A stretch of 64,000 bases of DNA from the NCBI GenBank assembly GCA_002839335.1, contig PGXU01000002.1, positions 1-64,000 of the forward strand. The letters run 5' to 3'. Source of the stretch: Spirochaetae bacterium HGW-Spirochaetae-4 (GTDB lineage: Bacteria; Spirochaetota; Spirochaetia; Sphaerochaetales; Sphaerochaetaceae). This document shows, one piece after another, positions 196 through 41,603 of this stretch. The notes below the pieces were generated by a model. The model was given only the letters and a program-made list of their open reading frames with translations. It made no database searches and was not told where the DNA came from. The translations under genes were made by a program, and so were the position numbers. Numbering within the stretch: the stretch's first letter is position 1; every line of letters starts with the position of its first letter.

Positions 196-1263
196 TCACA
201 CAACGATTTCCTTTCCTCCGGAACGGGCCGATTCGTGGCAGGCAAGTACCATCGCCACATTGTGCAAGCCCTGCCGACCATCCATAGGTTTGTTGTCGCG
301 TATGGAGTGGGCATGCTCGGCGATCTGCGCCTGGTAGATGTTCTGGACATGGTCCAAGGAAATCGATTCTTCAGATACAGCTGTCTTGACTTCCAATCCG
401 ATCCGCATCGGTTCATCCGCATGTCCAGAGAGCTGGAAGGTTGTTCCATATCCCCGGATGACACCGTCGTGCCCGTACAATTCATACCCTAGATTGTCCA
501 TCGTAGCGAACGAGCCTCCCCGCGGTTGGTTGAAACCGACGCGAACGCATCCCCGAGAGCCGTCTTGCATCCCATAGATGATCAACGCACCATCCTCTAC
601 CGCGATTCGGAGCGTTTTCGGATAATAGACACACCGGATGCTGCATATCTGCCGACCGGACAGGAACTCGGCCATATCCAGGCAATGGCTTGCCACATCC
701 CCGATCGGACCACCCAGCTCGTCGGGCAAGGCGCAGCGCCAGGTTGCGGCCTCGAGCGGATCCTCTCCATAGAGGAACTCCATATGGATCACCGCATAAT
801 CGATTGGTCCCACCACCTGGGAGCGCACCAACTCCCTGGCTTTGATATTGTAGGCATTCTTGGGCATCATGAGGTTCACCGACACACTCAACCCTTGAGA
901 CAAGGCATACTCGCACAGTACGTTCGCATCCTCCAGACTCGTGGTCATCGGCTTCTCCACCAAGACATGCTTACCTGCCTGGAGCGCCTTCATGGCAACC
1001 GGAAAATGGGTGGAATTCGATGTCGCCACATAGATCGCATCGATCGTATCGTCGTCCAGCATCTGCCCGTAGGTATCGTACCAATGCAAGCCCAGTGCGG
1101 TCGCGGCCGTCTTGCGTTTGGGGTCGATATCGGTAGCCCCCACCAACACCATGGGGAGGTCCTGTTGGTTGAAGCGCCTGGTATCCAAGGCAAACCCCTC
1201 TTTGGCGATACGGTTCTCGGCGATTCCACCGAATCCCACGATCGCATAACGAATCTGTTCCAT
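196..1263 (-). CDS. Gfo/Idh/MocA family NAD(P)-dependent oxidoreductase
   Basis: A 355-residue dehydrogenase of the Gfo/Idh/MocA family. It has an N-terminal Rossmann motif (VGFGGIAENR near residue 10) and the family EKP motif (VLVEKPMTTS near residue 100), whose lysine is catalytic in this family. The C-terminal alpha/beta domain binds the sugar or cyclitol substrate. The ATG at 1263 has a strong ribosome site (AAGGAGG, 5 bases upstream). It lies 10 bases after the DegT aminotransferase gene, and such pairs usually oxidise and then aminate a keto-sugar, or the reverse. It is the last gene of the corrinoid operon. The substrate cannot be read from the sequence. Confidence 0.88.
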   Translation of the reverse strand: MEQIRYAIVGFGGIAENRIAKEGFALDTRRFNQQDLPMVLVGATDIDPKRKTAATALGLHWYDTYGQMLDDDTIDAIYVATSNSTHFPVAMKALQAGKHVLVEKPMTTSLEDANVLCEYALSQGLSVSVNLMMPKNAYNIKARELVRSQVVGPIDYAVIHMEFLYGEDPLEAATWRCALPDELGGPIGDVASHCLDMAEFLSGRQICSIRCVYYPKTLRIAVEDGALIIYGMQDGSRGCVRVGFNQPRGGSFATMDNLGYELYGHDGVIRGYGTTFQLSGHADEPMRIGLEVKTAVSEESISLDHVQNIYQAQIAEHAHSIRDNKPMDGRQGLHNVAMVLACHESARSGGKEIVV

Positions 1264-1273
1264 CCGTGCCTCC

Positions 1274-2551
1274 TTATGCTCGATAATGGGAAGCCAGAAC
1301 GGACTTCACCGCATCGATACACCGTTGGATATGGCTGTTTTCCCACGTGGGGTGAAGGAACAAGCTCAATGTCTGGGCCCGCAACCCTTTCGCGGTCTTG
1401 CAGGCGATCTTGTCGTAGGCAACCGACGCTGCGTCGGTATATTCTTCCGAACGGAAGGGGAACTTGACACTTCCGAAGCCGTTGTGCTCCTTATAGGCGC
1501 GTTCCTCGTAGGCCTCGGGCCACTGGATACCGTAACAGGGGATACCGAGTGCCACCAATTCCTTTCCGAAGGCCGGCGCGTCGATATCCAACACCTCCAG
1601 GTCGAGCAGGATCGGATACCACCAGTAGGCATTCCGACGTTCCTCCGTGTCGACCGGGACCGCCTTGATTCCCCTCAGGCCCTTGAAGGCCGCATCATAG
1701 CGGGCCGCATGGGCACGCCTGCGAACGAGGTTCCAAGAATCGAAGCGCTTCAGTTCGTTGATTCCGATAATCGACTGGATCTCGGTCATGCGATAGTTGA
1801 ATCCCACCCGATTGTGCACATAGGGAAGCTTCTCCTCCATGGCCAACAGGTTCAACCGCTGCTGGACATCGTAGCCGTGGTCACGGAACGACCGGCAATC
1901 CCAGGCGAGTTTCTCGTTGTCGGTGACGACCATGCCACCTTCACCACCGGTGGTGAAATGCTTGCTCTGGCAGAAGCTGAAACACCCGACATCACCCAAG
2001 GTTCCCGCTTTCCTGCCCTTGTAGAGTCCCCCGAAACACTGCGCGCAGTCTTCGATCACATAGAGGTCGTGTTGCTTCGCGAACTCGAGGATCGGCCCCA
2101 TATCGGCGACCACACCATACAGATGGACCACGATGATCGCCTTGGTGCGTTTGGAAAGCAGTTTCGGAAGTTGGACGGGATCGAGGGTATGCTCCTCGGT
2201 CACATCGGCGAATACCGGAATGGCACCGGCTTGGACGACACTGAAGGAAGATGCGATAAACGAATAGGAAGGGACGATCACCTCGTCACCCGGACCGATA
2301 TCCAGGCTCGCCAAGGCTATATGCAGTGCGGCGGTTCCATTGGTACAACTCACCGCGAAGGCGGATCCTTCCCATTGTGCGAACATCCGTTCGAATTCCA
2401 TCCCCTTCTTGCCGGTCCAATAATTGACCAACCCGCTTTTCAGGGGTTCCTGCACCGCTTCGAGTGTCTCGGGTGCGAACTGTGGCCACATGGGAAAGCC
2501 CAGTTTGGACGCCCCGTCGGCATTCATCACCAAATCCTTCTTGCCCGCCAT
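1274..2551 (-). CDS. DegT/DnrJ/EryC1/StrS family PLP aminotransferase
   Basis: A sugar aminotransferase of about 425 residues. The Schiff-base lysine lies in QSKHFTTGGEGG, and the PLP-contacting aspartate is in the YVIEDCAQCFGG segment. The open frame extends to 2599, but the ATG at 2551 has AGAGGAGG just upstream and only a 14-base overlap-free gap to the preceding stop, so I take it as the start. Family members make or degrade aminated keto-sugars or cyclitols. It is paired with the downstream Gfo/Idh dehydrogenase and placed in a corrinoid methyl-transfer operon. This may mean that the operon's substrate is a methylated amino-sugar or cyclitol, which is inference only. Confidence 0.88.
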   Translation of the reverse strand: MAGKKDLVMNADGASKLGFPMWPQFAPETLEAVQEPLKSGLVNYWTGKKGMEFERMFAQWEGSAFAVSCTNGTAALHIALASLDIGPGDEVIVPSYSFIASSFSVVQAGAIPVFADVTEEHTLDPVQLPKLLSKRTKAIIVVHLYGVVADMGPILEFAKQHDLYVIEDCAQCFGGLYKGRKAGTLGDVGCFSFCQSKHFTTGGEGGMVVTDNEKLAWDCRSFRDHGYDVQQRLNLLAMEEKLPYVHNRVGFNYRMTEIQSIIGINELKRFDSWNLVRRRAHAARYDAAFKGLRGIKAVPVDTEERRNAYWWYPILLDLEVLDIDAPAFGKELVALGIPCYGIQWPEAYEERAYKEHNGFGSVKFPFRSEEYTDAASVAYDKIACKTAKGLRAQTLSLFLHPTWENSHIQRCIDAVKSVLASHYRA

Positions 2552-2564
2552 GCGAAACCTCCTC

Positions 2565-3638
2565 TTACCGTGTCCAAGGCTTTTCCCCCGAGGCGACATC
2601 CTCCAGGAAATCCATCATCACTCCGATATTGCCTGCCGGTGTCTGGGGGTACAGTCCATAGGTGAGGATCAACCCGCCGGCCGGATCGTACAATAGGCGC
2701 AATACATCGGCCAGGTACTGTCGTACCAGTATCGCATCGGACTGTTGGGTGATGCTCTGGCGATCGATATCGAGATCGAGGGCGACCTTGCCCTTCATAT
2801 GCCCGTGCAACCACGGTAAGGTGTTCGCGTTGTCCTGGATATTGAACACATCGACCGGCAAGGTGAGCAGTTCGTCCGCCAGAGTCCTGATATCCCCATC
2901 CGAATGCATATGGATGATACACCCGGCCTTCTCCGCCGGCTCCATGATGGTCCGGTAGACCGGCATGATCCACTTCTTGAACATGTCCGGGGAGAGCATG
3001 GGTCCGCTTTGCATCCCCAGGTCCTCGGCATACCCGAGCCATTCGACATCGGCATAGGAGATGAAGCGCTCGACCAGACCAAGGTTGAATGCCATGAGCT
3101 TGTCCAGCACCACTGTCAAATTCGGCGCCTCGTCGAACATCGCATACAACGCCTGTTCGTACCCCAGGATATCGATCAGCTTCAAGAACGTATGGCCGTG
3201 GCCGATCTCACCCGAACGGAGGCAATCGAAGAAGCCGATGGAACCGCCGGTTGGCGATACCCCGTGCTTCCAGGTCACCGGATACCAGTGGGTGGTCTTG
3301 TCGGGATCGGGAGCTTCGAAACCGGAAAGCGTGTCGAGATCCTTGATCGGATGGTCCACCACCGTACCGACAAATCCGCTGGTCCGAGTCTCCCAGACAC
3401 AACCCCACGGATCGGTCCACTTCACATCCTCGCGGCACCACTCGGGGTACGGCACAGCTCCCCCCGACTTGACGAATTCCGGCACGCCGTCGGGAAACAG
3501 GACCGGGTGCGTTTCGACCAGCTTCGCAAGGAAGTCGCGGTCGTAGCTGTCCCAGCAGGCCTGGTTGATATGGAATACCACCGGCACGGCACTGGGGAAA
3601 TCGAAATGTACAGCCTTCGTTACAGTTTCCTTGTCCAT
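2565..3638 (-). CDS. uroporphyrinogen decarboxylase (URO-D) family protein, probable methyltransferase-like
   Basis: A 357-residue protein of the URO-D superfamily, which includes HemE and the cobamide methyltransferases MtaA, MtbA and CmuA. The segment HMHSDGDIR (residues 243-251) occupies the position where zinc methyltransferases have H-x-C-G-N. The zinc-binding cysteine is replaced, so it is not a canonical MtaA. The neighbouring corrinoid protein and activators argue against haem synthesis. It may bind the substrate or act as the demethylase half, which is inference. The ATG at 3638 follows an AAAGGAGAGG ribosome site. It ends 13 bases before the aminotransferase start. Confidence 0.82.
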   Translation of the reverse strand: MDKETVTKAVHFDFPSAVPVVFHINQACWDSYDRDFLAKLVETHPVLFPDGVPEFVKSGGAVPYPEWCREDVKWTDPWGCVWETRTSGFVGTVVDHPIKDLDTLSGFEAPDPDKTTHWYPVTWKHGVSPTGGSIGFFDCLRSGEIGHGHTFLKLIDILGYEQALYAMFDEAPNLTVVLDKLMAFNLGLVERFISYADVEWLGYAEDLGMQSGPMLSPDMFKKWIMPVYRTIMEPAEKAGCIIHMHSDGDIRTLADELLTLPVDVFNIQDNANTLPWLHGHMKGKVALDLDIDRQSITQQSDAILVRQYLADVLRLLYDPAGGLILTYGLYPQTPAGNIGVMMDFLEDVASGEKPWTR

Positions 3639-3663
3639 CGGTATCCGCCTCTCCTTTCCAATC

Positions 3664-4380
3664 CTAGTGGTGTGGATGTTTTGCTGTCAAGCGAAGTGTT
3701 TCCCCACTCCGTGGTACCCGCCGCTGGGGGCACTGCTCCCGATCACAGTACGCGCAGCTCTCGTAGTCGGATTTCGCCGAAGCGAAGAGCATGCCCGCTA
3801 TCGACTTGTTGGGGACCATGAGCGAGCTTTCGGTCAACCGCACCCCGATCGGTTCGGCTCCCCGTTCCCCGAGCAACCGGAACAGGCCGTGCATCTGCTC
3901 GATGGGCCACAGGTCGATATTCCCCGAACCGGGGTTCACACTCAGCGGTTTGGAGATGCCGAAGTGTGCCGTACAATACTCCAGTAGCCCACGTCGGGCC
4001 GCACCCAGGGCTTGGTTCTTGATCGAATCGAGCCAATACGGTGCGAGCATGTCCAACCGCTTAAGGTCATACGATTCCATGCCATCTCCACACGTGGCGA
4101 CATATACAAACACCCTGTGCACCTCGTCCAAGGCAGCCATGGCCGTACCGACAAACCGTTCGGAACCGATGGCGACCGACGGTACTCCCGCGACCACCTC
4201 GTGCGAACCGATGAACAGTTGGCGCAGCAGTACCTTCGGCTGCAACAACATGGTTGCATCGTCGAACAGCTGCACGGCCTCCACTTGCGCATCGTCAAGC
4301 GCATCGAAGCGGATGCTGCGACGGTACTGGGACAGCGAGGGAGAAAATGGTACGTCTATGAGAATCGGCTTCTGTGCCAT
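3664..4380 (-). CDS. MetH-activation-domain-like protein (corrinoid reactivation)
   Basis: A protein of about 238 residues resembling the C-terminal S-adenosylmethionine-binding activation domain of cobalamin-dependent methionine synthase, but encoded alone. Visible family signatures are VNPGSG, WPIEQ and the GVRLTESSLMVPNKSI segment. A C-terminal CAYCDREQCPQR cysteine cluster could hold a metal or iron-sulphur centre. Stand-alone versions occur beside corrinoid methyltransferases and may restore oxidised cob(II)alamin. The ATG at 4380 is preferred over 4422 because GAAGGAG precedes it by 9 bases. The operon therefore has two candidate corrinoid activators, this one and the RamA-like protein. 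Confidence 0.8.
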   Translation of the reverse strand: MAQKPILIDVPFSPSLSQYRRSIRFDALDDAQVEAVQLFDDATMLLQPKVLLRQLFIGSHEVVAGVPSVAIGSERFVGTAMAALDEVHRVFVYVATCGDGMESYDLKRLDMLAPYWLDSIKNQALGAARRGLLEYCTAHFGISKPLSVNPGSGNIDLWPIEQMHGLFRLLGERGAEPIGVRLTESSLMVPNKSIAGMLFASAKSDYESCAYCDREQCPQRRVPRSGETLRLTAKHPHH

Positions 4381-4408
4381 ACCGTGTTGCTCCTTCGCCG
4401 GCGCATCG

Positions 4409-5404
4409 TCAAGATACGACAAGACGGGCCCCGTGCGCGGCTATCCGGTTCCAGGTAGCAAGCAGCAGCGTCTTGGCATCGACCGTTGCCGCATGGATGC
4501 CCACCACCCCGGTTTCGATTCCCACCGGCATGTCGCATATGCCCACCTGGACGTACGGTCCCACCGCATCGACCTTCCAAGCCTTCCCGTCACCGCTCGG
4601 AAGGAAGCCTTTCATGCGCAACATGTGCACAGAGGTCTCGGCAAGCAAGGCCTCCAACATCGCCGGCTCCCAATTCCCCTCGATGGAGAACACCACGGTC
4701 TCCGGCCGTCCATGGACACCCCACCCCTTGTAGGCCGTCGTATCGATCGAGCGTATGTGCTCCCATGCGACATCCGTTTCCCAGAGGGACAGCATGTCGG
4801 CCCTGATGGTTCCACGGGTGGTGGCAAAGCACGGGGCGAGTGGACGGATCTTTTGCACCTCCGCCGTCACCGCCGCCAGCGTCGGGGAATCGACCAGATC
4901 GGTCTTGTTCAGGATAATCGCATCGCTGAATACCAGTTGCTCCTCCAGTGTGGTGATGGCCTGCGAAAGCAGGTGGTAGCGCGAGGCATCGATTACGCAG
5001 AGCATGCCGCCATAGGTAACCCGCCCCGCACTCCGGTTGGTGATCACCGATACGATCTCCAACAACGGAGCCGGTTTCGCCAACCCCGAGGCCTCCACGA
5101 CAATCATATCCGGATCATGTGCAAGCAGTGCCTCCACTGCATCGACGAACGATCCGGAGAGGCAGCTGCAGAACAGTTGGCCCCCGCTGAGACTCTTGGT
5201 GGCAACCACCGATGAACTGGCGGCGACCAGCGCGCTATCGACGGCGATGGGACCGAAATCATTGGTGATCAGGGCGATCTTCTTATCCTTCAGATGCCCC
5301 AGCAGGCTGTTGATGACCGAGGTCTTTCCCGAGCCGAGGAATCCGGTGACCAGGTGGAGCTTGATCGGAGGACGTTCACTCCGACGCTGGGTTTGATGCG
5401 GCAT
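4409..5404 (-). CDS. CobW/COG0523 family GTP-binding protein
   Basis: A 331-residue GTPase with P-loop GFLGSGKTS near residue 20 and a guanine-specificity NKTD motif (ILNKTDLV). The C-terminal CobW domain is present. Family members are metallochaperones for cobalt, zinc or nitrile hydratase, or support B12 enzymes. The usual CxCC metal motif reads CSCL here, so one cysteine is missing. The open frame runs upstream to 5821, but that part is the shadow of the preceding gene. The ATG at 5404 overlaps the preceding TGA (ATGA), which implies translational coupling to the URO-D/thioredoxin fusion gene. Confidence 0.88.
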   Translation of the reverse strand: MPHQTQRRSERPPIKLHLVTGFLGSGKTSVINSLLGHLKDKKIALITNDFGPIAVDSALVAASSSVVATKSLSGGQLFCSCLSGSFVDAVEALLAHDPDMIVVEASGLAKPAPLLEIVSVITNRSAGRVTYGGMLCVIDASRYHLLSQAITTLEEQLVFSDAIILNKTDLVDSPTLAAVTAEVQKIRPLAPCFATTRGTIRADMLSLWETDVAWEHIRSIDTTAYKGWGVHGRPETVVFSIEGNWEPAMLEALLAETSVHMLRMKGFLPSGDGKAWKVDAVGPYVQVGICDMPVGIETGVVGIHAATVDAKTLLLATWNRIAAHGARLVVS

Positions 5405-6750
5405 CAGAGCACCTCGCGGATGCGCGCGACCAGCTCGTCGCGACTGGGGATGATCGATGAATAGGCGAGTTTCCCGTTGATGTAGATGCTGGGCAACTGT
5501 TTCACCCCTACCTCCCGGCAGCGGGCGATGTTCTCGGGCACCGTGTACTTGTACTCGATCACATCGATGGCGGCGTCGATATGCGCCACCGCATCCAAGG
5601 CGGCGGCCCACATGTAGGTGCATGCGGCGCAGGTCGCCGAATCGAGGGTGAATACCTCGACCAGGGGTTTGGCCAGTTGTCCGTAGTCGGGCAAAGTGCC
5701 GGAAAATCCGATATCCTTGCGCTCGTAGTTGCGTACCATGGCACGCGCGCTGGCGGTCTCGTGCACCGCATGCTCGGCGGCGATGACATTCTCGATGGGC
5801 ACATCGTAGGGCATGTCGCACCCGGGGGAGATGATCAACCGGCCGGCCGGCACCGAATCGATCAGCTGTACCACCGTCTTCATGTTGTCCTGCTGGTTAC
5901 CGAAGAGCATGACCGAGGTGAGGGGAATATTGCCGCCCAAGGTGATCTTGTAGCGGTCGGTGGTCGTCTTGGCACTTGCCAGGTCCACATTCTCGTCGAC
6001 CGACATGCTGTCGCACCCGGTTCGGCACATCGGTTCGATGTTCCTGGTGGCATTGCCACAGACGAAGAAGGAGGATTTGGCCCCTTGTTCGCGGATGGTA
6101 TCGAACACCCGGGTGAATGGTCCGTGCATGAACTCGGCGAAGTGGTCGGGCGATATCTGGGAAATGAGCGGATCGGTGACCGCCACGACATCGATTCCGG
6201 CTTCGATCAGGTAGGAGCAGACCGCCTGGACGACGGTGGTGGTATAGGCGAGCAATTCGTGCACATACTCGGGTTCGAGGATCAGGTCCATGAATATCTC
6301 GGTACCCCGCAGGTGCGAGGCTAGCGTGAAGGGGCCGGTGCAGACACCGTACAAAGCGGTGGTGGCTCCTATCGCCTTCTTCAACCGGCGCGTGGCTTCG
6401 AGTTCCACCCCGAGGCGCCCCTCGGTCGGTCCTGGGATTCTTGTGGGAATCGTGGTGATCTCGGCCAGCGGATGGCTGCTGACACTCGGAGGGCCATCGT
6501 CCGACCAGAGCATTTCACATCCCAAGAGCTCGGCTTCGATCTGTAGGTCGAACATGACCGGCTGGCCGTCGGGGTGGTAGAGCCGGTTGACCTCGCACGC
6601 GGCCACGACCACCGAATCGACGTCCGTCGAGACGGTCCGGGCATGGTATCCAAGCAACTTTCCGGCATGCACACCGGTGAACGGCACCCACGGCACCTTG
6701 TCGGTCTTGTGTCCTTCGATTGTTCCGATCACCCGTTCTTTTCCTGTCAC
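5404..6750 (-). CDS. URO-D family methyltransferase-like protein fused to a thioredoxin-like domain
   Basis: A 448-residue protein. Residues 1-350 match the MtaA/CmuA branch of the URO-D superfamily, with the segment FVCGNATRNIEPMC (229 onward) and a later cysteine at 311 in SPGCDMPYDVP. In MtaA the zinc ligands are H-x-C plus a distant C. Here the first position is Phe229, while Cys231 and Cys311 remain. Residues 367-448 form a thioredoxin-like module with CAAC (374-377) and a probable cis-proline at 420. The start is GTG at 6750 with CAGGAG upstream. It lies 13 bases after the corrinoid protein, its likely partner. The fusion is unusual. Confidence 0.85.
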   Translation of the reverse strand: MTGKERVIGTIEGHKTDKVPWVPFTGVHAGKLLGYHARTVSTDVDSVVVAACEVNRLYHPDGQPVMFDLQIEAELLGCEMLWSDDGPPSVSSHPLAEITTIPTRIPGPTEGRLGVELEATRRLKKAIGATTALYGVCTGPFTLASHLRGTEIFMDLILEPEYVHELLAYTTTVVQAVCSYLIEAGIDVVAVTDPLISQISPDHFAEFMHGPFTRVFDTIREQGAKSSFFVCGNATRNIEPMCRTGCDSMSVDENVDLASAKTTTDRYKITLGGNIPLTSVMLFGNQQDNMKTVVQLIDSVPAGRLIISPGCDMPYDVPIENVIAAEHAVHETASARAMVRNYERKDIGFSGTLPDYGQLAKPLVEVFTLDSATCAACTYMWAAALDAVAHIDAAIDVIEYKYTVPENIARCREVGVKQLPSIYINGKLAYSSIIPSRDELVARIREVL

Positions 6751-6763
6751 TGGGAACTCCTGT

Positions 6764-7402
6764 TCACCTGCCGCTGCACAGCTCCAACGCTACTTCCGCG
6801 GCGGTCGCAGCATCGGATGTGTACCGGTCCGCCCCGATGGTGTTCCTGAACGATTCGGTCACCGGGGCACCGCCGATCATAACCTTGACCGTCCCGTGCA
6901 GATCGGCATCGCGCACCGCCTTCACCACCTGCTCCATCTCTTTCATGGTTGTCGTCAACAACGCCGAACACGCGATGATCTGGGCATGGTGGGCCACCGC
7001 CTCCTCCACAAAGCGCTTGGGAGCAACATCGGTACCCAGGTCGATCACTTGCAGGCCTTTGCCTTTCATCATCATGCCGACCAGGTTCTTGCCGATATCG
7101 TGCAGGTCGCCCTTCACGGTTCCGATCACGACGGTGCCGCGATCGTGCATATTGGCAGCTGCCAACAGCGGTTTCAGGATTTCCATTCCGGCGTTCATGG
7201 CCCGTGCGGCGATCAGCACCTCGGGGACGAAGACTTCGTTGTTCTTGAACTTCAATCCGATCACGTTCATACCCGCAAGCAACCCCTGGTCGAGGATCTC
7301 CTCGGGTTTCATTCCATCGTCCACGGCCTGTTGTGTCAGTTCCCTGACTTCCTTCGCCTTGCCTTTCTGCAGGAATCCGGACAACGCTTCCATGTCAGCC
7401 AT
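6764..7402 (-). CDS. corrinoid-binding protein (MtaC/MtbC type, B12-binding)
   Basis: A 212-residue methyl-carrier protein. Residues 1-90 form the helical cap (methionine synthase B12-binding domain 1). Residues 91-212 form the Rossmann-like cobalamin domain with the base-off ligand motif D99-L-H101-D-I-G104, in which His101 would coordinate cobalt. The downstream SALLTTT and GGAPVT segments fit the cobalamin pocket. It carries a methyl group between the two methyltransferase halves of the system. The start ATG follows GGGGAGGAAG. It sits between the PocR regulator and the URO-D/thioredoxin fusion. Confidence 0.95.
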   Translation of the reverse strand: MADMEALSGFLQKGKAKEVRELTQQAVDDGMKPEEILDQGLLAGMNVIGLKFKNNEVFVPEVLIAARAMNAGMEILKPLLAAANMHDRGTVVIGTVKGDLHDIGKNLVGMMMKGKGLQVIDLGTDVAPKRFVEEAVAHHAQIIACSALLTTTMKEMEQVVKAVRDADLHGTVKVMIGGAPVTESFRNTIGADRYTSDAATAAEVALELCSGR

Positions 7403-7490
7403 ACTGCTTCCTCCCCTTCAGGGTATCATAAGAACGGTAGCCCACCGGTTGCCAGCAATCTGTAACGATATTGTCATTTTTTGTACAATC

Positions 7491-8897
7491 TTATGGTTTC
7501 TGTGATGCGTCCCCGCTGGCATTGTGGATCCCGTGGGTCTCATGGATCTCATGGATCTCATGGATCTCATGGATCTCATGGATCTCGTGGGTATCGGAGG
7601 GGAATCGTCCTCCCCGGTTGCGGTACTGTCCGGGTGTCGTGCCCGTGATGCGCTTGAACACCTTCGAGAAGTAGCTCTGGTCCTCGAATCCCACCAGGCC
7701 CGCGATCTCCACCAGGGGTAGCCGGGTCTGCACCAGCAGCCGCTCCGAGCGCTCGACACGCAACCGGTTGATGTAGGTGGTGAACGAGACGTGCAACCGT
7801 TCGTTGAACAGGCGGCTCAGATACGGTGCGCTCAACGATACGGCGGCGGCGGTCTGTTCCAAGGTGATGCGTTGGCCATGGTGTGTGCGGATGTACCGCA
7901 GTGCCCGCGACAACCCCACTCCGTACTCGGCGTCCTTGGCGGCGTACACCAGGTCGGTATAGGTGCGCAGGATGCGCGAGAACCACAGCGAGATTCCTTC
8001 GATGCTCGAGTATCGGCCGATCTCCCGCTGGTTGCGGGCGCTGGCTTCCAGGACTTCCCCGACGGGCGCCCCGCCTTGGATGGCCGCCCGCGACAGCAGC
8101 GAGACCAGTTCCAACATGCGGAAGTTGGTGCGTTCCGTCGTCAAGGCATCACCCAGAAACAGCAGTCCGAGCAGTTCCTGCATGATCCGCTGGGCTTCCT
8201 TATGGTCCCCCCACTTGATCGCATCCTGCAGTTGTTGTTCCTTCTCGATCGGATAGTACCGCTCCGATGCGTTGTCCTCCAGGGGGTGCTGTTTCATGTG
8301 CTGGATGAATTCGGAGAGCTTGGATTGCAATTGCAGGGCCTGTTGGGACTCCACCATGCGGTGTTCCGTGTATCCAGAGGCCCAGCCCGCGCACATGCGC
8401 AGCACTTCCGACAGGTGGTGGACCCGGTGGATGTCGACCCGCACCAGGTGTCCCAGCAGTTCCAGTGCCCGTTCGCGGGACAGGTGGTCGGGCAGGTCGG
8501 CATCGTCCAAGGCCTCTTCCGGTTCCATGACCATGACGGGTCCGGCTACGATCGCGTATTCCATGGTCCCTTCCATGAGCACGGGGCTGATCCAGTAGAG
8601 CATCGAGCAATTGCAGAAGTAGACGTAGGCGCCGCCGAAGCGTTCGGCAAGCTGTGCGTGGTGCAGGTGGATGTGCAGGCAGTGGGCGCCGAGGCTCTGG
8701 CCCGCACGCTGGTTGAGCTCGCTGCACAACTCGCAGCCCGATCCATGCAGGCGTCCCTGGCCGATGTCCAAGATCATGCAGGGGATGCCTGTGGCATTGC
8801 CGTAGTGCTCGGCGATGTCCTGCACGCCCTGGGGAATTCCTTCCTTTTGGTGTAGGTCTCCATGGCGTCCGTCGGTGTGGTGTCCGTCGCTGTTCAT
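7491..8897 (-). CDS. PocR-domain AraC-family transcriptional regulator with His/Glu/Ile repeat tail
   Basis: A 468-residue regulator. The N-terminal third has the features of a PocR ligand-sensing domain, including cysteine-bearing segments such as GSGCELCSELN. The C-terminal 100 residues before the tail form an AraC double helix-turn-helix (YIRTHHGQRITLEQTAAAVS onward). The last 30 residues are an HEI tripeptide repeat encoded by a 9-bp tandem array. PocR-type sensors often control corrinoid or propanediol genes, so it probably activates this operon. Its ATG overlaps the preceding gene's stop as ATGA. Confidence 0.9.
   Translation of the reverse strand: MNSDGHHTDGRHGDLHQKEGIPQGVQDIAEHYGNATGIPCMILDIGQGRLHGSGCELCSELNQRAGQSLGAHCLHIHLHHAQLAERFGGAYVYFCNCSMLYWISPVLMEGTMEYAIVAGPVMVMEPEEALDDADLPDHLSRERALELLGHLVRVDIHRVHHLSEVLRMCAGWASGYTEHRMVESQQALQLQSKLSEFIQHMKQHPLEDNASERYYPIEKEQQLQDAIKWGDHKEAQRIMQELLGLLFLGDALTTERTNFRMLELVSLLSRAAIQGGAPVGEVLEASARNQREIGRYSSIEGISLWFSRILRTYTDLVYAAKDAEYGVGLSRALRYIRTHHGQRITLEQTAAAVSLSAPYLSRLFNERLHVSFTTYINRLRVERSERLLVQTRLPLVEIAGLVGFEDQSYFSKVFKRITGTTPGQYRNRGGRFPSDTHEIHEIHEIHEIHEIHETHGIHNASGDASQKP
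7532..7594. repeat. 9-bp tandem repeat coding the HEI tail
   Basis: Five perfect copies of CATGGATCT (7541-7585) are flanked by degenerate units at 7532-7540 and 7586-7594. On the minus strand they encode repeated His-Glu-Ile tripeptides near the end of the PocR-AraC regulator. The unit is a multiple of three, so copy-number change by slippage would alter tail length without a frameshift. Confidence 0.95.
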
Positions 8898-10516
8898 GCG
8901 TCGGGGTCCTCCCCAAAATACATGTGTGAGACGTACTGCTGTTGGAAGGCCGGGGATGACGATAGCTCGATGTAGGCCATGGTGGTCCGTATCTGCTCGA
9001 CCTGTGTTTCTACGCCGTCGAACATGAGCAGTTCCAGGGCTCCCTTGCCGGCGGCGTTGCCCACCACCGAGATACGGGAGGGCGGAACCGGTGGCAGCAG
9101 GCCAATCCGTTGGGCGCTGGCGATGTCAATGTAGGAGCCGAAGCCCCCGGCGATGACTATGCCTTCCAGATCGTCGCTGGCCAGGCCCGCTGCGTCCAAC
9201 AATACCTGGGCCCCTGCGGCGATCGCTGCTTTGGCCAATTGTACTTCGCGCACGTCACTTCTGGTGAAGTACACCGAATCGGTGATACGCAGGGCCAGGC
9301 CGTCGGGCGAGGCGACCAGATACCGGTCGGCGTTCGGGTGGGTGGTGTCCATGGCGCCGGTTTCGTCCACCAGGCCGAGGTCGAGCAGCAATGCCATGGT
9401 ATCGACAATGCCCGAGCCGCATATGCCGTGGGCGTCCTTCGCGCCGATGGTCGACCAGACGATGTGGCCGTCGCTGTCTTGCCAGATGTGGTCGATTGCT
9501 CCGGGTACGGCTCCCAGGCCGTGGCGGATTGCTGCGCCTTCGAATGCGGGTCCTGCGGCCGATGAGCAGGCAGTCAACCGCTTGCCGTCCCACAGGACGA
9601 TTTCGCCGTTGGTGCCGATGTCGATGTACAGCACCGGTTCGCCACCTCGCATGATGTTGGCCGCATGCACGCCTGAGGTGATGTCCGAGCCCACGTAGGC
9701 GGCGACTGCCCCGGGCAGTTCCAGGTGCGCATGGCGGGCATTGGCGAATCCGATTTCCGAGGCTTGTATCGATTTCGGTTCGGTAAAGGCACAGGTGAAC
9801 GGAGCAGCTCCGATGCCGCTGGTATCTTCACCCACCAGCAGGTGGATCATGGTCGGATTTCCGACCGCCACCAGTTCGCCTAGGGCTTCGCTAGGAATGC
9901 CATGGCTTGTCAGGAGGTCCCCGATCATGGCATCCAGTTGCCCGACGATCGCATGTTGGAGGATTCTTGTACCGTCGGGATGTTCCTGCGCGTATTGGAT
10001 GCGGCTGATCACATCCGCACCGTGTGAGCGTTGCCGGTTCATTGCCGAGCGGTGGCCGAAGACCTGTCGGGTGTCCAATCGCACGAGATACACGACGATG
10101 GTGGTGGTCCCGATGTCGATGGCGCATCCATAGGTCTCTGCGTGGTAGTGCCGGCGCGGGGTACTGTGCACCGTTTCGTCGTTGAATGTGGTCAGGATGT
10201 TGGACCGGGCGTCTGTGTCCGCCAAGGTTATCGTCAGATCCGCATCGCCGTCATAGCGCATGCGGCATGCCAAACGCAATCCGCCGTGCAGCTGTGCTGG
10301 TGTCAGCAACCGGCGTTCATCGTCATGCACAGCACCGGCTGTACCTTCGGTTATCTTGACCAGGCACTTGCCGCACAGTCCGTTGCCGCCACAGGGTGAG
10401 GAGAATCCGGAGATCCCAGCGTCCACCAACAGTTCGAGCACGGTCCGTCCACCCACGCCGGTGAGTTTCCAAACGTGATCTTCCGCGACGACCGTCAGTG
10501 TACCGCCAGGTGCCAT
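8894..10516 (-). CDS. RamA-like corrinoid activation protein (2Fe-2S ferredoxin plus ASKHA domain)
   Basis: A protein of about 540 residues. The N-terminal ferredoxin domain has cysteines 42, 48, 51 and 84 in the plant-type pattern (CGGNGLCGKC, then LACRM). The rest is a DUF4445/ASKHA ATPase fold, with phosphate-binding segments such as AIDIGTTTIVVY and YIDIGTNGEIV. Such proteins reduce inactive cob(II)alamin to cob(I)alamin on corrinoid proteins at the cost of ATP. I prefer the ATG at 10516 because GGAAGGA precedes it, while the upstream ATG at 10534 has no ribosome site. It is the first gene after the promoter at 10550-10578. Confidence 0.92.
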   Translation of the reverse strand: MAPGGTLTVVAEDHVWKLTGVGGRTVLELLVDAGISGFSSPCGGNGLCGKCLVKITEGTAGAVHDDERRLLTPAQLHGGLRLACRMRYDGDADLTITLADTDARSNILTTFNDETVHSTPRRHYHAETYGCAIDIGTTTIVVYLVRLDTRQVFGHRSAMNRQRSHGADVISRIQYAQEHPDGTRILQHAIVGQLDAMIGDLLTSHGIPSEALGELVAVGNPTMIHLLVGEDTSGIGAAPFTCAFTEPKSIQASEIGFANARHAHLELPGAVAAYVGSDITSGVHAANIMRGGEPVLYIDIGTNGEIVLWDGKRLTACSSAAGPAFEGAAIRHGLGAVPGAIDHIWQDSDGHIVWSTIGAKDAHGICGSGIVDTMALLLDLGLVDETGAMDTTHPNADRYLVASPDGLALRITDSVYFTRSDVREVQLAKAAIAAGAQVLLDAAGLASDDLEGIVIAGGFGSYIDIASAQRIGLLPPVPPSRISVVGNAAGKGALELLMFDGVETQVEQIRTTMAYIELSSSPAFQQQYVSHMYFGEDPDA

Positions 10517-10549
10517 GTTGTTTCGTCCTTCCATGAATACGTGTCAATT

Positions 10550-10592: not shown

Positions 10593-10648
10593 GTACCTGG
10601 TACCAACTTTAGGTTTTGTATACAAAATCGAAAATCGGTACCTGGTAC
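10593..10648. repeat. 56-bp palindromic intergenic repeat, family 1, copy A
   Basis: An almost perfect 56-bp dyad centred on TTTTGTATACAAAA (10614-10627), with GTACCTGGTACC-like outer arms. About 23 of 28 arm positions pair. It begins 14 bases past the stop of the COG4091 gene and ends upstream of the corrinoid-operon promoter. The same element occurs at 12027, 13980 and, split, at 19301. Confidence 0.92.
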
Positions 10649-10650
10649 TT

Positions 10651-10670
10651 GCTCTAGCGTCGCTAGAGCA
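10651..10670. promoter_or_regulatory. short hairpin at the end of the COG4091 gene
   Basis: GCTCTAGCG and CGCTAGAGC form a perfect 9-bp stem that overlaps the TAG stop at 10663. Together with the adjacent family-1 repeat it could limit read-through, but there is no T-run, so it is not called a terminator. Confidence 0.5.
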
Positions 10671-12012
10671 TCCTTAGGAGCGAGGAGTTTGCGGTGTCGA
10701 GCATGTCGAGGGTAAGGACGGTGTCCTTTGGTATGTCGCGTGAGAGGGTTTTGCCGGCCATCAGGTAGAAGGGGATGACGTCGGGTCCGACCGAATCGTA
10801 GGGAACCAAGGAGACATCGACTCCTTCGATCTCGTGGTGGTGCCCGTTTACCTCGAGCAATTCGCCTTTGGAGAAGTCGCGCATGGTGGTGCCGACCATC
10901 TTGGAGACCCTGCGGCAGCCTTGCGAACTCGACATCCGCTTCAGGCTGGCCAACAGGACCGACATGGGGGCTTCCACTCCCATGAAGTGGTACGGAAGGT
11001 ACATGCATGCGTATTTCTTGTTGCGCGAGACGATGTGGCCCTTCTCTTTCAGCAGGTCCCAGACCTGCTCGTTGTGGCAGGTGACGATGATGAAGACACC
11101 ACCTGCGAAACTGGCTTCGTCGGGACGTCTGAGGTTGATGAACACATCGACCACACCGGTCTTCTCAAGGATACCGCCGTCTTCGATCGGGATGAAGACA
11201 TCGGCAAGTTCCTCGACACGGCAGATCGGATAATGCATGGCGTCGCAAGCGGGGAGCAGGCCCGTGATGTTGGAGACCACGTTCATCTCGCAGTAATCGG
11301 GAACAGCGGATTGCGGATAATCCTTGAGTAGCTCGCTGCGTTGGATGAGGGTCTGTGGTCCCGCCAGGGTCCAGGTGGAGGCGAATTCGGGGATCGGGGC
11401 GGAATCGCCCAAATATTCGAACATGCCGTTCTGGGGGTCGTAGATGAAGTCGTATTCGCTCGATTTTCCGGCGGCGATGATTTCCAGGCCCAGGGTCTTG
11501 GCCCAGGAGTAGAGTTGGACCAGGTTGCCCGGTTGGTCCCCGTTGACGATCGTGTAGATCAGGTTGTTGCGCTGGGCAAGGTCGTGCAGGTAGGGACCGG
11601 CCACCGAATCGGTTTCCTTCGAGACCATGCAGACGTGGATGCCGTTGAGCAGGCAATCCTCCGCGACGGAGGCACTTACCTCCGGAACGCCGGTGGATTC
11701 CACCAGTACGTCGATATCGGTCGATGAAAGTAGCGAACTCTCTTCCATAATGAGGATCGCATCTTCCTTCAGCAAGGCTGCGGCAATATCGTCGGCGGTA
11801 CGGCACAGGTGGAAACGGTTGGTGTCGTAGCCCAGTTCGTTCAGCAACAACAGCGATTTTTCGGCATCGAGGTCACACATCACCCGCAGGGAGATCGATG
11901 GGATCATGGGGATCTGGGCGAGGAACGAATAACCGAAGCCTCCGTTCGCCCCGATGATTCCCACTCGGATTTCGCCTGCCCTACTGGTATCCAGCAACTC
12001 AAAATAATTCAT
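10663..12012 (-). CDS. COG4091-type NAD(P)-dependent oxidoreductase with C-terminal SAF domain
   Basis: A 449-residue protein with an N-terminal Rossmann motif (VGIIGANGGFGYSF) and a homoserine-dehydrogenase-like middle region (VLVESTGVPEVSA, VSKETDSVAG). The C-terminal SAF-like domain begins near residue 370. Family members are often annotated as homoserine dehydrogenase or FlgA-like and are found in sugar-acid catabolism. The neighbours here (DUF1537 kinase, class II aldolase, TctABC) support oxidation of a hydroxy-acid before phosphorylation. The exact substrate is unknown. The ATG at 12012 has CAGGAGAG upstream. It is flanked on both sides by family-1 repeats. Confidence 0.82.
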   Translation of the reverse strand: MNYFELLDTSRAGEIRVGIIGANGGFGYSFLAQIPMIPSISLRVMCDLDAEKSLLLLNELGYDTNRFHLCRTADDIAAALLKEDAILIMEESSLLSSTDIDVLVESTGVPEVSASVAEDCLLNGIHVCMVSKETDSVAGPYLHDLAQRNNLIYTIVNGDQPGNLVQLYSWAKTLGLEIIAAGKSSEYDFIYDPQNGMFEYLGDSAPIPEFASTWTLAGPQTLIQRSELLKDYPQSAVPDYCEMNVVSNITGLLPACDAMHYPICRVEELADVFIPIEDGGILEKTGVVDVFINLRRPDEASFAGGVFIIVTCHNEQVWDLLKEKGHIVSRNKKYACMYLPYHFMGVEAPMSVLLASLKRMSSSQGCRRVSKMVGTTMRDFSKGELLEVNGHHHEIEGVDVSLVPYDSVGPDVIPFYLMAGKTLSRDIPKDTVLTLDMLDTANSSLLRML

Positions 12013-12026
12013 CAGTCTCTCCTGCG

Positions 12027-12082
12027 GTACCTGGTACCAACTTTAGGTTTTGTATACAAAATTGAAAAACGGTACCTGGTAC
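12027..12082. repeat. 56-bp palindromic intergenic repeat, family 1, copy B
   Basis: The same 56-bp dyad as copy A, in the same orientation, centred at 12054/12055 on GTATAC. Its right end touches the stop codon of the aldolase gene (12082) and its left end lies just upstream of the ribosome site of the COG4091 gene. Confidence 0.92.
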
Positions 12083-12711
12083 TATGAAAAATTTGTTTTC
12101 AAATTTTTCATTTCCCCCTCGGTGAGATACCGGATGGGTAGCGATTGTCCCAGATACCATAGCTTTGCCGTCTCTTCGAATTCCTCGGCTGCCGAGACCG
12201 CATCGGCCAATGTTTTTCCACAGACAATAAAGCCGTGGTTGGCCATGAGCAGGCTCGTGTAGGCCCGTTTTTCGCGTACGTCGTCGGCTATCGCGGGATC
12301 CCCCGGCTTGCGGTAGGGAAGGATACCGACCGCTCCGACTTTCATCACGAAATAGGGAGTGAACGGTTTGATGGGCACGCCGTCGGCCAAGCCTTCGCAG
12401 CTGGCCAACAAGGTGGCATAGGTGGCATGCAGGTGAACGACCGCAGTGATCTCGGGGTGCACTTCATAACATGCCAGGTGGAAGAATATCTCCTTGGTCG
12501 GCTTCTTGCCCGACAAGAGGTTCCCCGATGCATCGATGTGCGAGACATCTTCGGTGTTGAGGAAGCCGAACGACGATCCGGTGGGAGTGGCCAGGAAGGT
12601 GCCATCGTCCAATTTCATGGACATGTTGCCGGCCGTTCCGACTGCATACTTGTGTGCGTAGAGCATATGGGCATACCGCACCATTGCCTGGCGTGCTTCA
12701 AGATTGTCCAT
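12082..12711 (-). CDS. class II aldolase/adducin family protein, probable sugar-acid phosphate decarboxylase (OtnC-like)
   Basis: A 209-residue metal-dependent class II aldolase. Metal-binding histidines are visible in VVHLHATYAT, and a third in ANHGFIV. The TPTGSSFG segment matches the phosphate/substrate loop. When paired with a DUF1537 kinase, such enzymes act as 3-oxo-tetronate-4-phosphate decarboxylases (OtnC/YgbL), which is the most likely role here. The open frame runs to 12855, but the ATG at 12711 has CAGGAG 7-8 bases upstream and overlaps the end of the kinase gene by 14 bases, so it is chosen. Confidence 0.85.
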   Translation of the reverse strand: MDNLEARQAMVRYAHMLYAHKYAVGTAGNMSMKLDDGTFLATPTGSSFGFLNTEDVSHIDASGNLLSGKKPTKEIFFHLACYEVHPEITAVVHLHATYATLLASCEGLADGVPIKPFTPYFVMKVGAVGILPYRKPGDPAIADDVREKRAYTSLLMANHGFIVCGKTLADAVSAAEEFEETAKLWYLGQSLPIRYLTEGEMKNLKTNFS

Positions 12712-13963
12712 CGTACAACTCCTGTGCTTTCTTGAAGAAATCGACTGTGCCGAAATTGCCCGACTTGTACACCAACTGCACCTCGCCGTCGAGCGAGCGG
12801 ATCCATGAGACGCCCGGGTCGATCTGGATACCGATGAGATAGGATGATAGTCCAAGGACGGTCGCCACTACCCCGCTGGTCTCGCCACCTGCGATCAGAT
12901 AGTTCTTGATTCCACGTGTGGCTACAATGCTGGTCATGGTGCCGATCACCTGTTCTATGCGAGCGGATACTTCGGCATCGCCATAGGTTTGTTTGCTCTT
13001 CTCCAACTCCTGTGGTGTCTTGGTCGCATAGACCATCGGAGCGTAGGGGCCGGTGTTGTTCTCGAGGATCCAGTCGGCAAGTTCCTGTGCGTACTTGGGG
13101 TTATCGAGGCATTGGGCTTCCTCGATATAACGCGAGGGAGCGATCGTCCGATACAGGGCGACCTGTTCGTTGGTCCGCTGCGAACATGAGCCGGCGATCA
13201 CCACTGCCGGAAGGCGACGTGGCAGGAAGCTTACCGCCGGGGTGTTCTGTTTGCCAAGGCGGCGGTTGTGCAGGTGTGCCATGCCGATCGCGAGGCCCGA
13301 TCCTCCGGTCACCAGGGGAAAATCCTCGGTGGCTTCGGCGATCGCATGGAGCTGTGCCTCTTCAAGCACATCTACAATCAAGTAATTCGCGTTGCCCGAT
13401 CGGGCGGTTTCGATGCATTGGCGGATATGTTGGGGGCCTTTGGCCATGTCCTCGTAGTGGATATGGGTGCTGCTTCCCTTGAATTGGCCTTCCATGAGGC
13501 GGCAGAGCTTGGCATCCCGCATGGGTGTTATGGGGTGGTGGCGCATGCTCGATTCGCTGAGCAGCTGGTCGTTGACGAACAAGTAGCCCTTGTACACCGT
13601 GCGTCCATTGACCGGCAACGCCGGGCAGATGAGTGTCATCGAGGTGCCGAGACGGGCCATGAGAGCGTCGGCGATCGGGCCGATATTGCCTTCATGGGTG
13701 GAGTCGAAGGTCGAGCAATATTTGAAGTAGAACCGGTCGCACTTGGCCGCTTGCAAGTACTCGAGTGCCTCGAGGGCCTTGTCGACTGCTTCGGAAACGG
13801 GACAGGAACGGATTTTCATGCTTACCACCAAGGCGTCGGCGTCCAACTCGTGCTCCTGGTTGGGAACGCCGTTGAACATGATCGTGCGCATGCCGTTTCC
13901 GACCAGGAAGCCGGCGATATCCGTTGCTCCGGTGAAGTCATCCGCTATAACACCTAGTCGCAT
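12698..13963 (-). CDS. DUF1537 four-carbon acid-sugar kinase (OtnK-like)
   Basis: A 421-residue kinase. The N-terminal acid-sugar-binding domain has the family signature ADDFTGATD. The C-terminal nucleotide-binding domain carries AGGETSGVV, the glycine-rich ATP loop. DUF1537 enzymes phosphorylate 3-oxo-tetronates, threonate, erythronate or 3-oxo-isoapionate. The downstream class II aldolase favours the 3-oxo-tetronate type. The frame upstream to 14035 only translates the adjacent repeat. The ATG at 13963 has AAAGGAG five bases upstream and is preferred. Confidence 0.88.
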   Translation of the reverse strand: MRLGVIADDFTGATDIAGFLVGNGMRTIMFNGVPNQEHELDADALVVSMKIRSCPVSEAVDKALEALEYLQAAKCDRFYFKYCSTFDSTHEGNIGPIADALMARLGTSMTLICPALPVNGRTVYKGYLFVNDQLLSESSMRHHPITPMRDAKLCRLMEGQFKGSSTHIHYEDMAKGPQHIRQCIETARSGNANYLIVDVLEEAQLHAIAEATEDFPLVTGGSGLAIGMAHLHNRRLGKQNTPAVSFLPRRLPAVVIAGSCSQRTNEQVALYRTIAPSRYIEEAQCLDNPKYAQELADWILENNTGPYAPMVYATKTPQELEKSKQTYGDAEVSARIEQVIGTMTSIVATRGIKNYLIAGGETSGVVATVLGLSSYLIGIQIDPGVSWIRSLDGEVQLVYKSGNFGTVDFFKKAQELYDGQS

Positions 13964-13979
13964 ATATGCTCCTTTGCAA

Positions 13980-14035
13980 GTACCTGGTACCAACTTTTCA
14001 TTTTGTATACAAAATCGAAAATCGGTACCTGGCAC
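13980..14035. repeat. 56-bp palindromic intergenic repeat, family 1, copy C
   Basis: The same dyad, centred at 14007/14008. Its right end stops one base before the TAA of the TctA gene (14037-14039), and its left end is next to the ribosome site of the kinase gene. It differs from copy A at a few arm positions, including the outermost right arm (GGCAC for GGTAC). Confidence 0.92.
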
Positions 14036-14036
14036 T

Positions 14037-15542
14037 TTACTTGTAACTTTTCTTAATCTTGGCGACGATTTTCATCACCACGGGAGCCAACAGCAGCGCG
14101 AAGGTAAACAGCAGCAATCCGAGGGCGATGGGTTTTTGCAGGAATACCATCGCATTGCCGTTGGATATCGAGAGCGCTTGTCGGACCGAAATCTCGAAAC
14201 GCGGTGCGAGCACAAAGGCCAGCAGCACCGGCGGTATGGGGAAGGCGTATCGCTTCAGGTAGAAAGCGCCGATTCCTGCGAAGATCATGAACCATACGTC
14301 GAACATGTTGTTGTTGACCGAGTAGGAACCGACGATACAGATGATCACGATGATCGGGGCCATGATTTTGGTGGGAATCCTGAGGAAGGACATGAGGAAC
14401 GGTATGATCGCCATTCCTGCGACCAGGCAGACGAGGTTGCCGATATACATGGAGCTGATCAGGCCCCACACGAACGTCGGATCCGATTCGAACAACAGGG
14501 GACCGGGGCGCAAGCCCCACATCATCAGGCCGCCAAGGAGGACCGCGGTGGTCGCCGATCCGGGAATTCCCAGCGAGAGCAGCGGTACGAATGCGCCGAC
14601 TGCGGCGGCGTTGTTCGCCGCTTCCGAGGCGGCTACCCCTTCTATGGCACCCTTGCCCATCTGGGCACGGTTCTTACCGACCTTCTTTTCCATGACATAA
14701 GCCAAGAACGAGCCGGTGGTACCGCCGGCACCCGGTAGGAATCCGATGAAGTTGCCCAAGAGCGCACTGCGAAGCGATGGCATGAGGATGCGTTTCATTT
14801 CGCTGCGGTCGAGGAAGCTCTCACGCAGGGTAAGACGTTTGGCCGGCTCGGCGTGGGTCGAGGACCCCGGTTGCATCATCTCCATGACCTGGCTGAAGCC
14901 GAACATGCCGATGACCAGGGGAATGAAGGAGATGCCGCTGATCAAATTCATATTCCCGAAACTGAAACGGGGAAGTCCGGAGGCACCGTCGATGCCGATG
15001 GTCGAGAGCAGCACGCCGATTCCCGAGGCTATCAGACCTTTGACGGGATCGTCGCCCAACAGCCAACCGATCGAGGTGAGAGCGAGGAAGATCAGGGCCG
15101 CTACTTCGGCGGGGCCGAACTTCAGCCCTACTTCAGCCAGTAACGGCCCGAAGATGGTGAGGAAGATGATGCCGATCGATCCGCCTATGAAAGAAGCGAC
15201 GTTGCCGGCGAACAGCGATTTGCCCGGTTTTCCCTGCTTGGTCAGCTCATAGCCGTCCAAGGCGGTCATGACCGCCGGCGAATCGCCAGGTATGTTCATG
15301 AGCGTCGCGCTATAGGCGCCGCCGTACATGTTTCCATAATAGATGCCGGCCAACATGATGATGCCGGTGGTGGGATTCAGCTTGAACGTCATCGGAAGCA
15401 ACAACGAGACTCCGGTGACGGCCCCGATGCCAGGCATGGCACCGACTACGATTCCCAGGATTCCGCCCAACAGCGCCGCGATCAGGTTCGGCAACGCGAA
15501 TGCGACGGTGAATCCTTGGAACAACAACTCAAAATTATTCAT
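14037..15542 (-). CDS. tctA: tripartite tricarboxylate transporter, large membrane subunit (set 1)
   Basis: A 501-residue inner-membrane protein with about a dozen hydrophobic segments. The TctA signature GAMPGIGAVTGVSLLLP is in the first loop, and the related GFLPGAGGTTGSFLAY is in the second half. It forms the translocation channel with TctB and receives substrate from TctC. The start ATG has AAGGAG upstream. It is followed, after repeat copy C, by the acid-sugar kinase and decarboxylase genes, so it probably imports a four- or five-carbon sugar acid. Confidence 0.93.
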   Translation of the reverse strand: MNNFELLFQGFTVAFALPNLIAALLGGILGIVVGAMPGIGAVTGVSLLLPMTFKLNPTTGIIMLAGIYYGNMYGGAYSATLMNIPGDSPAVMTALDGYELTKQGKPGKSLFAGNVASFIGGSIGIIFLTIFGPLLAEVGLKFGPAEVAALIFLALTSIGWLLGDDPVKGLIASGIGVLLSTIGIDGASGLPRFSFGNMNLISGISFIPLVIGMFGFSQVMEMMQPGSSTHAEPAKRLTLRESFLDRSEMKRILMPSLRSALLGNFIGFLPGAGGTTGSFLAYVMEKKVGKNRAQMGKGAIEGVAASEAANNAAAVGAFVPLLSLGIPGSATTAVLLGGLMMWGLRPGPLLFESDPTFVWGLISSMYIGNLVCLVAGMAIIPFLMSFLRIPTKIMAPIIVIICIVGSYSVNNNMFDVWFMIFAGIGAFYLKRYAFPIPPVLLAFVLAPRFEISVRQALSISNGNAMVFLQKPIALGLLLFTFALLLAPVVMKIVAKIKKSYK

Positions 15543-15570
15543 TCCTTCGTCTCCTTGCTAGCAAATCTCA

Positions 15571-41594: not shown

Positions 41595-41603
41595 TGCTCG
41601 CTC

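Follow-up and report, generated by a model that had tools for sequence, protein, structure and literature searches.

A corrinoid methyl-transfer operon with two divergent URO-D proteins in a Sphaerochaetaceae genome: a candidate system for anaerobic carbohydrate O-demethylation

Operon layout, conserved core and variable downstream genes

The window analyzed here, a 64,000-nucleotide stretch of DNA from Spirochaetae bacterium HGW-Spirochaetae-4, lies at the start of a contig of 109.7 kb in a draft genome of 3.6 Mb (143 contigs, 99.9% complete). Near its beginning, nine minus-strand genes, overlapping or at most 88 bp apart, run from base 10534 down to base 196 in the order RACo, PocR-AraC, corrinoid protein, UroD1, CobW, MetH-activation-like protein, UroD2, DegT, and Gfo/Idh (families by Pfam and NCBIfam; Table 1). 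The presence of a corrinoid protein, a reductive activator, and a methyltransferase-fold protein in one operon places the locus among corrinoid systems in general. All nine genes described in an initial annotation of this DNA are found; its activator stands, with the type corrected from RamA-like to RACo-type (AcsV, 346 bits vs. RamA, 125 bits). A promoter-like TTGACA-17-GAGAAT element, recognized by consensus match only, lies just upstream of the RACo gene (10578–10550, minus strand). Base 1 of the window is also base 1 of the contig, which stops 195 bases past the Gfo/Idh gene; the downstream side is therefore cut, and one more gene could be missing. Searches against Rfam and PHROGs gave no match.

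Table 1. Features of the corrinoid operon, in the direction of its genes
Feature	Position	Strand	Remark
RACo/RACE-type ATP-dependent reductive activator of corrinoid protein	8894..10534	-	Fer2 + Raco_middle + RACo_C; first gene
PocR sensory domain + AraC-type DNA-binding domain	7491..8897	-	likely operon regulator
Free-standing corrinoid protein, methyl carrier	6764..7402	-	B12-binding_2 + B12-binding
UroD1: MtaA-like URO-D barrel + thioredoxin domain (CAAC)	5404..6750	-	proposed MT2
CobW/COG0523 GTPase, likely metallochaperone	4409..5407	-	directly 3′ of UroD1
Small protein resembling end of MetH activation domain (PF02965)	3664..4422	-	closes conserved core
Identity breakpoint vs. sibling genome G123	3698		DNA comparison
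UroD2: divergent URO-D protein	2565..3638	-	proposed substrate:corrinoid methyltransferase (MT1)
DegT/DnrJ/EryC1/StrS sugar aminotransferase	1274..2599	-	Pfam/NCBIfam
Gfo/Idh/MocA dehydrogenase	196..1263	-	last gene before contig end

The first six genes, from RACo to the MetH-activation-like protein, occur in the same order in 11 Sphaerochaetaceae genomes (10 besides this one), some of them cut by contig ends. Such recurrence shows that chance does not account for the gene set. The search for the exact gene set in other genomes, which the initial annotation had proposed, bears out this first part, and the downstream part varies. Between the window and the sibling genome G123, 91.7% DNA identity extends over about 16.3 kb, from position 3698 up to the limit of the compared 20 kb, and it stops at 3698, within the last codons of the MetH-activation-like gene. 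Past this point the present genome continues with UroD2, DegT, and Gfo/Idh, and G123, which lacks UroD2, with a ROK regulator, an isomerase, a ribose-type ABC transporter, a PIG-L deacetylase, a second isomerase, and a URO-D protein of its own. Elsewhere the core is followed by a TRAP transporter and another URO-D (G101 and G096), by another URO-D (G090), or by nothing obvious (G020). Given the sharp break at 3698 and the different URO-D-bearing gene sets, the genes behind the core appear to be swapped as a single cassette, every cassette bringing a separate URO-D protein. That of G123 retains a His-X-Cys...Cys pattern, so the cassette URO-D proteins need not all act on O-methyl compounds.

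Upstream of the core, a region kept in G123 (10663–16059) encodes a 3-oxo-tetronate kinase (above cut-off), a class II aldolase, and a DRL-type oxidoreductase, together with tripartite tricarboxylate-type transporter-like genes recognized by eye, and looks like a locus for sugar-acid catabolism; in G021 (L096), a kinase related to this one is found behind the core as well. An interspersed repeat with the core GTACCTGGTACC is found at 10593, 12027, 12072, 13980, and 19301 (five copies in the window vs. 0.15 expected), its copies sitting at gene junctions around the DRL, aldolase, and kinase genes. Farther along, a PEP mutase with a fused cytidylyltransferase-like domain and a phosphonopyruvate decarboxylase, both above NCBIfam cut-offs, lie at 54699–57133 in an apparent surface-glycan gene cluster, possibly for a phosphonate-decorated polysaccharide. 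A stretch of about 60–62% GC with long odd frames (39937–43733), set between stretches of 35–46% GC, is possibly a mobile insertion.

Methyltransferase inventory and the two URO-D proteins

From the pairing of corrinoid proteins with MtaB, MttB, or MtrH-type enzymes in known systems, the initial annotation had concluded that the operon has no recognized substrate methyltransferase. The absence itself extends to the whole genome, including the unlinked MttB/MtrH gene that the annotation wished to see searched for: genome-wide family searches found no MTTB, MtaB, or MtrH protein, and a hidden partner of these families elsewhere in the genome is rejected. The premise is nevertheless wrong, because URO-D proteins are already recognized as corrinoid methyltransferases that act on methyl groups bound to O, S, or halogen (PMC10418091, PMC13222342); MtaA, OdmB/VdmB, CdmB, and Mlp are among them. 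The genome holds three URO-D proteins and, in this operon, its sole free-standing corrinoid protein. MetH, encoded on another contig, is the only other carrier of B12-binding_2 and the only protein with pterin-binding and homocysteine-methyltransferase domains. The genome has no stand-alone pterin-binding methyltransferase, and tetrahydrofolate methylases, whose absence within 20 kb is a criterion for type 1 mlp clusters, are lacking both in that range and, MetH excepted, genome-wide. The third URO-D, very divergent, is encoded on contig C124 (L027:13260-14336) near an old-yellow-enzyme-type oxidoreductase, a Gfo/Idh-like protein, an amidohydrolase, and ribose-type ABC genes.

In UroD1 the URO-D barrel is followed, at the C-terminus, by a thioredoxin-fold domain whose motif is CAAC (CxxC). 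This fusion, the MT2-like role of the protein, and the core-plus-cassette structure of the locus were missed by the initial annotation, which is partly supported overall. Structure prediction, another check that it had suggested, gave models of both URO-D proteins that match MtaA best in the PDB. For UroD1 the model is confident (pLDDT 93, pTM 0.90) and has the MtaA fold, with 4AY7 as best match (E 8e-22, TM 0.87, identity about 23%). UroD1 stays below the curated NCBIfam cut-off for MtaA/CmuA (153.5 vs. 235.4 bits) and fails the model for hemE, the uroporphyrinogen decarboxylase of the haem pathway (63 bits vs. a cut-off of 303); with UroD2 lacking any NCBIfam match, hemE included, a porphyrin function was rejected. 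In UroD1, the MtaA zinc triad His-X-Cys...Cys reads Phe229-X-Cys231...Cys311, and this Phe-X-Cys...Cys pattern is invariant, as are both thioredoxin cysteines, in 47 of 47 aligned homologues. Because it lacks the His that binds zinc in MtaA, UroD1 is not certain to be active as a thiol methyltransferase.

When 84,980 species genomes were scanned for UroD1, 80 loci were kept; they place the protein in Spirochaetota, Chloroflexota, Clostridia, Halanaerobiales, relatives of Haloplasma, and others. CobW lies directly 3′ of the UroD1 homologue at 52 of the 77 scored loci, with a corrinoid protein within the locus at 43 and RACo at 38. The nearest named UroD1 record comes from Spirochaetae bacterium HGW-Spirochaetae-2 (96%); where the operon has named relatives, these are metagenome-assembled genomes of Spirochaetae and Sphaerochaetaceae. 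In Chloroflexi, the UroD1-thioredoxin protein (UroD1-Trx) adjoins MtaB at one locus (L148) and clusters with MtmB at two (L161, L177). MtaB and MtmB are the textbook MT1 enzymes for methanol and monomethylamine. These neighbors argue for an MT2 role as in MtaA; UroD1 most likely fills the MT2 slot, and UroD2 would then take that of MT1. At two Chloroflexi loci (L160, L174), a homocysteine S-methyltransferase (PF02574) and DUF1638 are neighbors of UroD1-Trx, and homocysteine may accept the methyl group in these cases. A folate-methylating MT2 in these relatives was considered and rejected, as the MetH-like match scanned (L160) is the PF02574 homocysteine S-methyltransferase; members of this type number two in all in the Chloroflexi UroD1 loci.

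UroD2 matches the Pfam URO-D family weakly (34.8 bits), its sequence finds nothing meaningful in the PDB, and its profile aligns weakly with that of UroD1 (hhalign probability 23%). Its AlphaFold model, which rests on 16 sequences and has low-confidence segments at 54–66 and 119–147, is a URO-D barrel (pLDDT 79, pTM 0.81). The best PDB match is MtaA (E 6e-11), ahead of decarboxylases, with 12–14% identity to 4AY7 by structural alignment. H-M-H-S-D-G and E-D are conserved motifs, and at the His-X-Cys position of MtaA UroD2 has His245-X-Asp247, with Asp for Cys; the third Cys is absent. A carboxylate in place of the Cys zinc ligand goes with O- rather than S-substrates (PMC10418091). With the URO-D-superfamily MT1 of O-demethylases (OdmB/VdmB/MtvB type), UroD2 agrees in fold only. 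UroD2 is likely, in our estimate, to be a corrinoid methyltransferase. Acetogen O-demethylases and Cdm (OdmB/VdmB/CdmB) likewise combine a URO-D-superfamily MT1 with a corrinoid protein and a RACE activator; unlike the present operon, which has no folate-methylating MT2 partner and stands among sugar-type neighbors, they possess such an MT2 and act on methoxy-aromatics or chloromethane.

Type 1 mlp clusters (Kountz & Balskus, PMC10418091) also feature several URO-D proteins, a corrinoid protein, and a Ram/RACE activator with no H4folate methylase nearby, and an operon of this line would handle methyl-thiols or methyl-selenols rather than a methylated carbohydrate. The MtaA-like UroD1 is indeed closest to S-methyltransferases, homocysteine S-methyltransferases neighbor it at some Chloroflexi loci, and the G123 URO-D keeps His-X-Cys...Cys. 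By definition, however, such clusters hold at least two Mlps (Mlp2, Mlp3) more than 25% identical to characterized CoM methyltransferases (PMC10418091), a level that neither protein reaches in comparison with MtaA 4AY7 only (not MtbA or MtsA). The full His-Cys-Cys set of Mlps is likewise found in neither, UroD1 having Phe-Cys-Cys and UroD2, far from MtaA, His-Asp without a third Cys; type 1 mlp membership is rejected on ligand motif and similarity. The published account of these clusters is without thioredoxin domains, CobW, or sugars (PMC10418091). The cassettes here contain sugar genes and none related to sulfur or selenium, and the company of MtaB and MtmB elsewhere fits UroD1-Trx as a general MT2. 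We regard methyl-thiol or methyl-selenol chemistry as unlikely. The mec cassette of dichloromethane fermenters (PMC9768040), as described in the available part of its account, shares a PocR-containing regulator, several URO-D methyltransferases, and a corrinoid protein with the operon; unlike the latter, it includes MecF, a proposed MTII, and its substrate is dichloromethane, and that part mentions no sugar genes.

Co-occurrence with corrinoid proteins and sugar-gene neighborhoods

Among 393 genomes of the phylum, a free-standing corrinoid protein related to that of the operon is present in 22 of the 25 with a UroD2-like match and in 16 of the 368 others, among the matches listed (Fisher p 8e-23, kinship ignored; corrinoid cut-off about 155 bits, for a short frame, set after viewing the match list). 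The strict UroD2 set gives 9 of 10 among the matches listed (p = 3e-9, kinship ignored), the sole exception being G023, where UroD1 lies at a contig end at which the corrinoid gene would be expected. Within the family, the core is found in 5 of 6 UroD2 carriers vs. 12 of 139 genomes overall (p = 1e-5, kinship ignored). Genomes with both UroD2 and a corrinoid protein may share ancestry. The core and UroD2 lie apart in G124 (by about 30 kb, on one contig), G021, G027, and G023, and in these genomes they are connected only through their co-occurrence.

UroD2 and its relatives keep company with sugar genes. In G124 and G027, which belong to two genera, the series UroD2-ROK-DegT-Gfo-PIG-L lies opposite a sugar ABC transporter-isomerase-Gfo cluster, and the DegT of the window is 81–84% identical to the DegT proteins of these clusters. 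In G023 and G025, a relative of about 40% identity directly adjoins glucuronate isomerase in a uronate cluster (L022:8429-10928, L023:5360-7889), which suggests 4-O-methylglucuronate as a candidate substrate for that clade. G378 has a UroD2-like gene in one co-directed run with an ABC transporter, PfkB, mannitol dehydrogenase, RACo, PocR, and a corrinoid protein, and in G285 a relative adjoins alpha-L-fucosidase. The theme common to these settings would be a methylated sugar, uronate, or aminocyclitol. 4-O-methylglucuronate and other O-methylated sugars are found in plant and algal glycans. The PDB matches of DegT are scattered over sugar aminotransferases, 2-deoxy-scyllo-inosose aminotransferases being among the better ones, and do not single out one function. 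The suggestion in the initial annotation that one URO-D protein is a demethylase for a carbohydrate-like substrate is best attached to UroD2. PIG-L, ABC transporter, and URO-D genes are also repeatedly accompanied by related proteins of about 310–320 aa (L093:3380-4330, L027:5718-6689, L021:7279-8208); the two that were scanned have no Pfam match.

Alternatively, UroD2 could be no methyltransferase but catalyze another reaction on sugars, for instance as a lyase or isomerase with the URO-D fold, its cassette having been inserted downstream of a corrinoid operon; the co-occurrence of UroD2 with corrinoid proteins would then be lineage history. Its place among sugar genes unlinked to corrinoid genes in G124, G027, G023, and G025 is consistent with this, as are its very low similarity to known methyltransferases and the lack of a PDB match by sequence. 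What makes it distinctly unlikely in our judgment is that the 22 of 25 co-occurrence, among the matches listed, spans many families, that the exchanged cassette of G123 brings a URO-D too, that UroD2-like and corrinoid genes are independently linked in G378, and that the fold match to MtaA ranks above decarboxylases.

A proposed pathway for anaerobic carbohydrate demethylation

With confidence barely above even, we propose that UroD2 removes an O-methyl group from a methylated sugar or cyclitol derivative in an anaerobic, corrinoid-dependent reaction, and that UroD1-Trx passes this group on to a thiol. As MT1, UroD2 would bind a carbohydrate-like methylated substrate, which is probably either an O-methyl sugar or a derivative of an aminosugar or aminocyclitol, and hand its methyl group to Co(I) of the corrinoid protein. 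UroD1-Trx, as an MtaA-like MT2 with a putative metal site, would transfer it from methyl-Co(III) to a thiol acceptor, which the CxxC thioredoxin domain may present or regenerate. RACo would return Co(II) to Co(I) with ATP, CobW would load metal, the MetH-activation-like protein may help corrinoid reactivation, and PocR-AraC would govern expression of the operon. DegT and Gfo/Idh would feed the demethylated product into central metabolism, or could serve biosynthesis instead. That the methyl group ends on tetrahydrofolate via UroD1-Trx or MetH, the operon being a methylotrophic feed, accords with typical bacterial corrinoid O-demethylase systems (PMC13222342, PMC10418091) and with the presence of MetH, and is very improbable in a genome without MtrH or a stand-alone pterin-binding methyltransferase, given that thiols are substrates of MtaA-type enzymes and that the thioredoxin fusion indicates thiol chemistry.

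The proposed demethylation by UroD2 and UroD1-Trx resembles the methanogen MtaABC and MtmBC-MtbA systems in its set of MT1, corrinoid protein, and URO-D-type MT2, UroD1 having the MtaA fold; unlike in those systems, MT1 would here be a URO-D protein, and MT2 is fused to thioredoxin and lacks the zinc-ligand His. Rhizopine catabolism (moc genes) offers a looser analogy, in that Gfo/Idh (MocA) and TIM-barrel (MocC-like) enzymes accompany the O-demethylation of a methylated aminocyclitol, O-methyl-scyllo-inosamine. The rhizobial step is oxygen-dependent (Rieske), whereas demethylation here would be corrinoid-dependent. To our knowledge, known sugar O-demethylations are oxygen-dependent, and we found no description of corrinoid-dependent carbohydrate demethylation in the open-licence literature searched.

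More tentatively, and on balance doubtfully, the locus may exemplify a general anaerobic system of corrinoid carbohydrate O-demethylation, in which a core with a thioredoxin-fused, MtaA-like MT2 of altered metal site would be combined with swappable, sugar-adapted URO-D demethylases (for 4-O-methylglucuronate, for instance, where glucuronate isomerase is the neighbor), and methyl groups would pass to thiols, not folate. If this is true, the thioredoxin-fused MtaA-like protein would represent a new type of methyl-acceptor enzyme, and many URO-D genes in the sugar operons of anaerobes would gain a testable function. The operon thus suggests a way in which methyl groups may be removed from methylated carbohydrates without oxygen.
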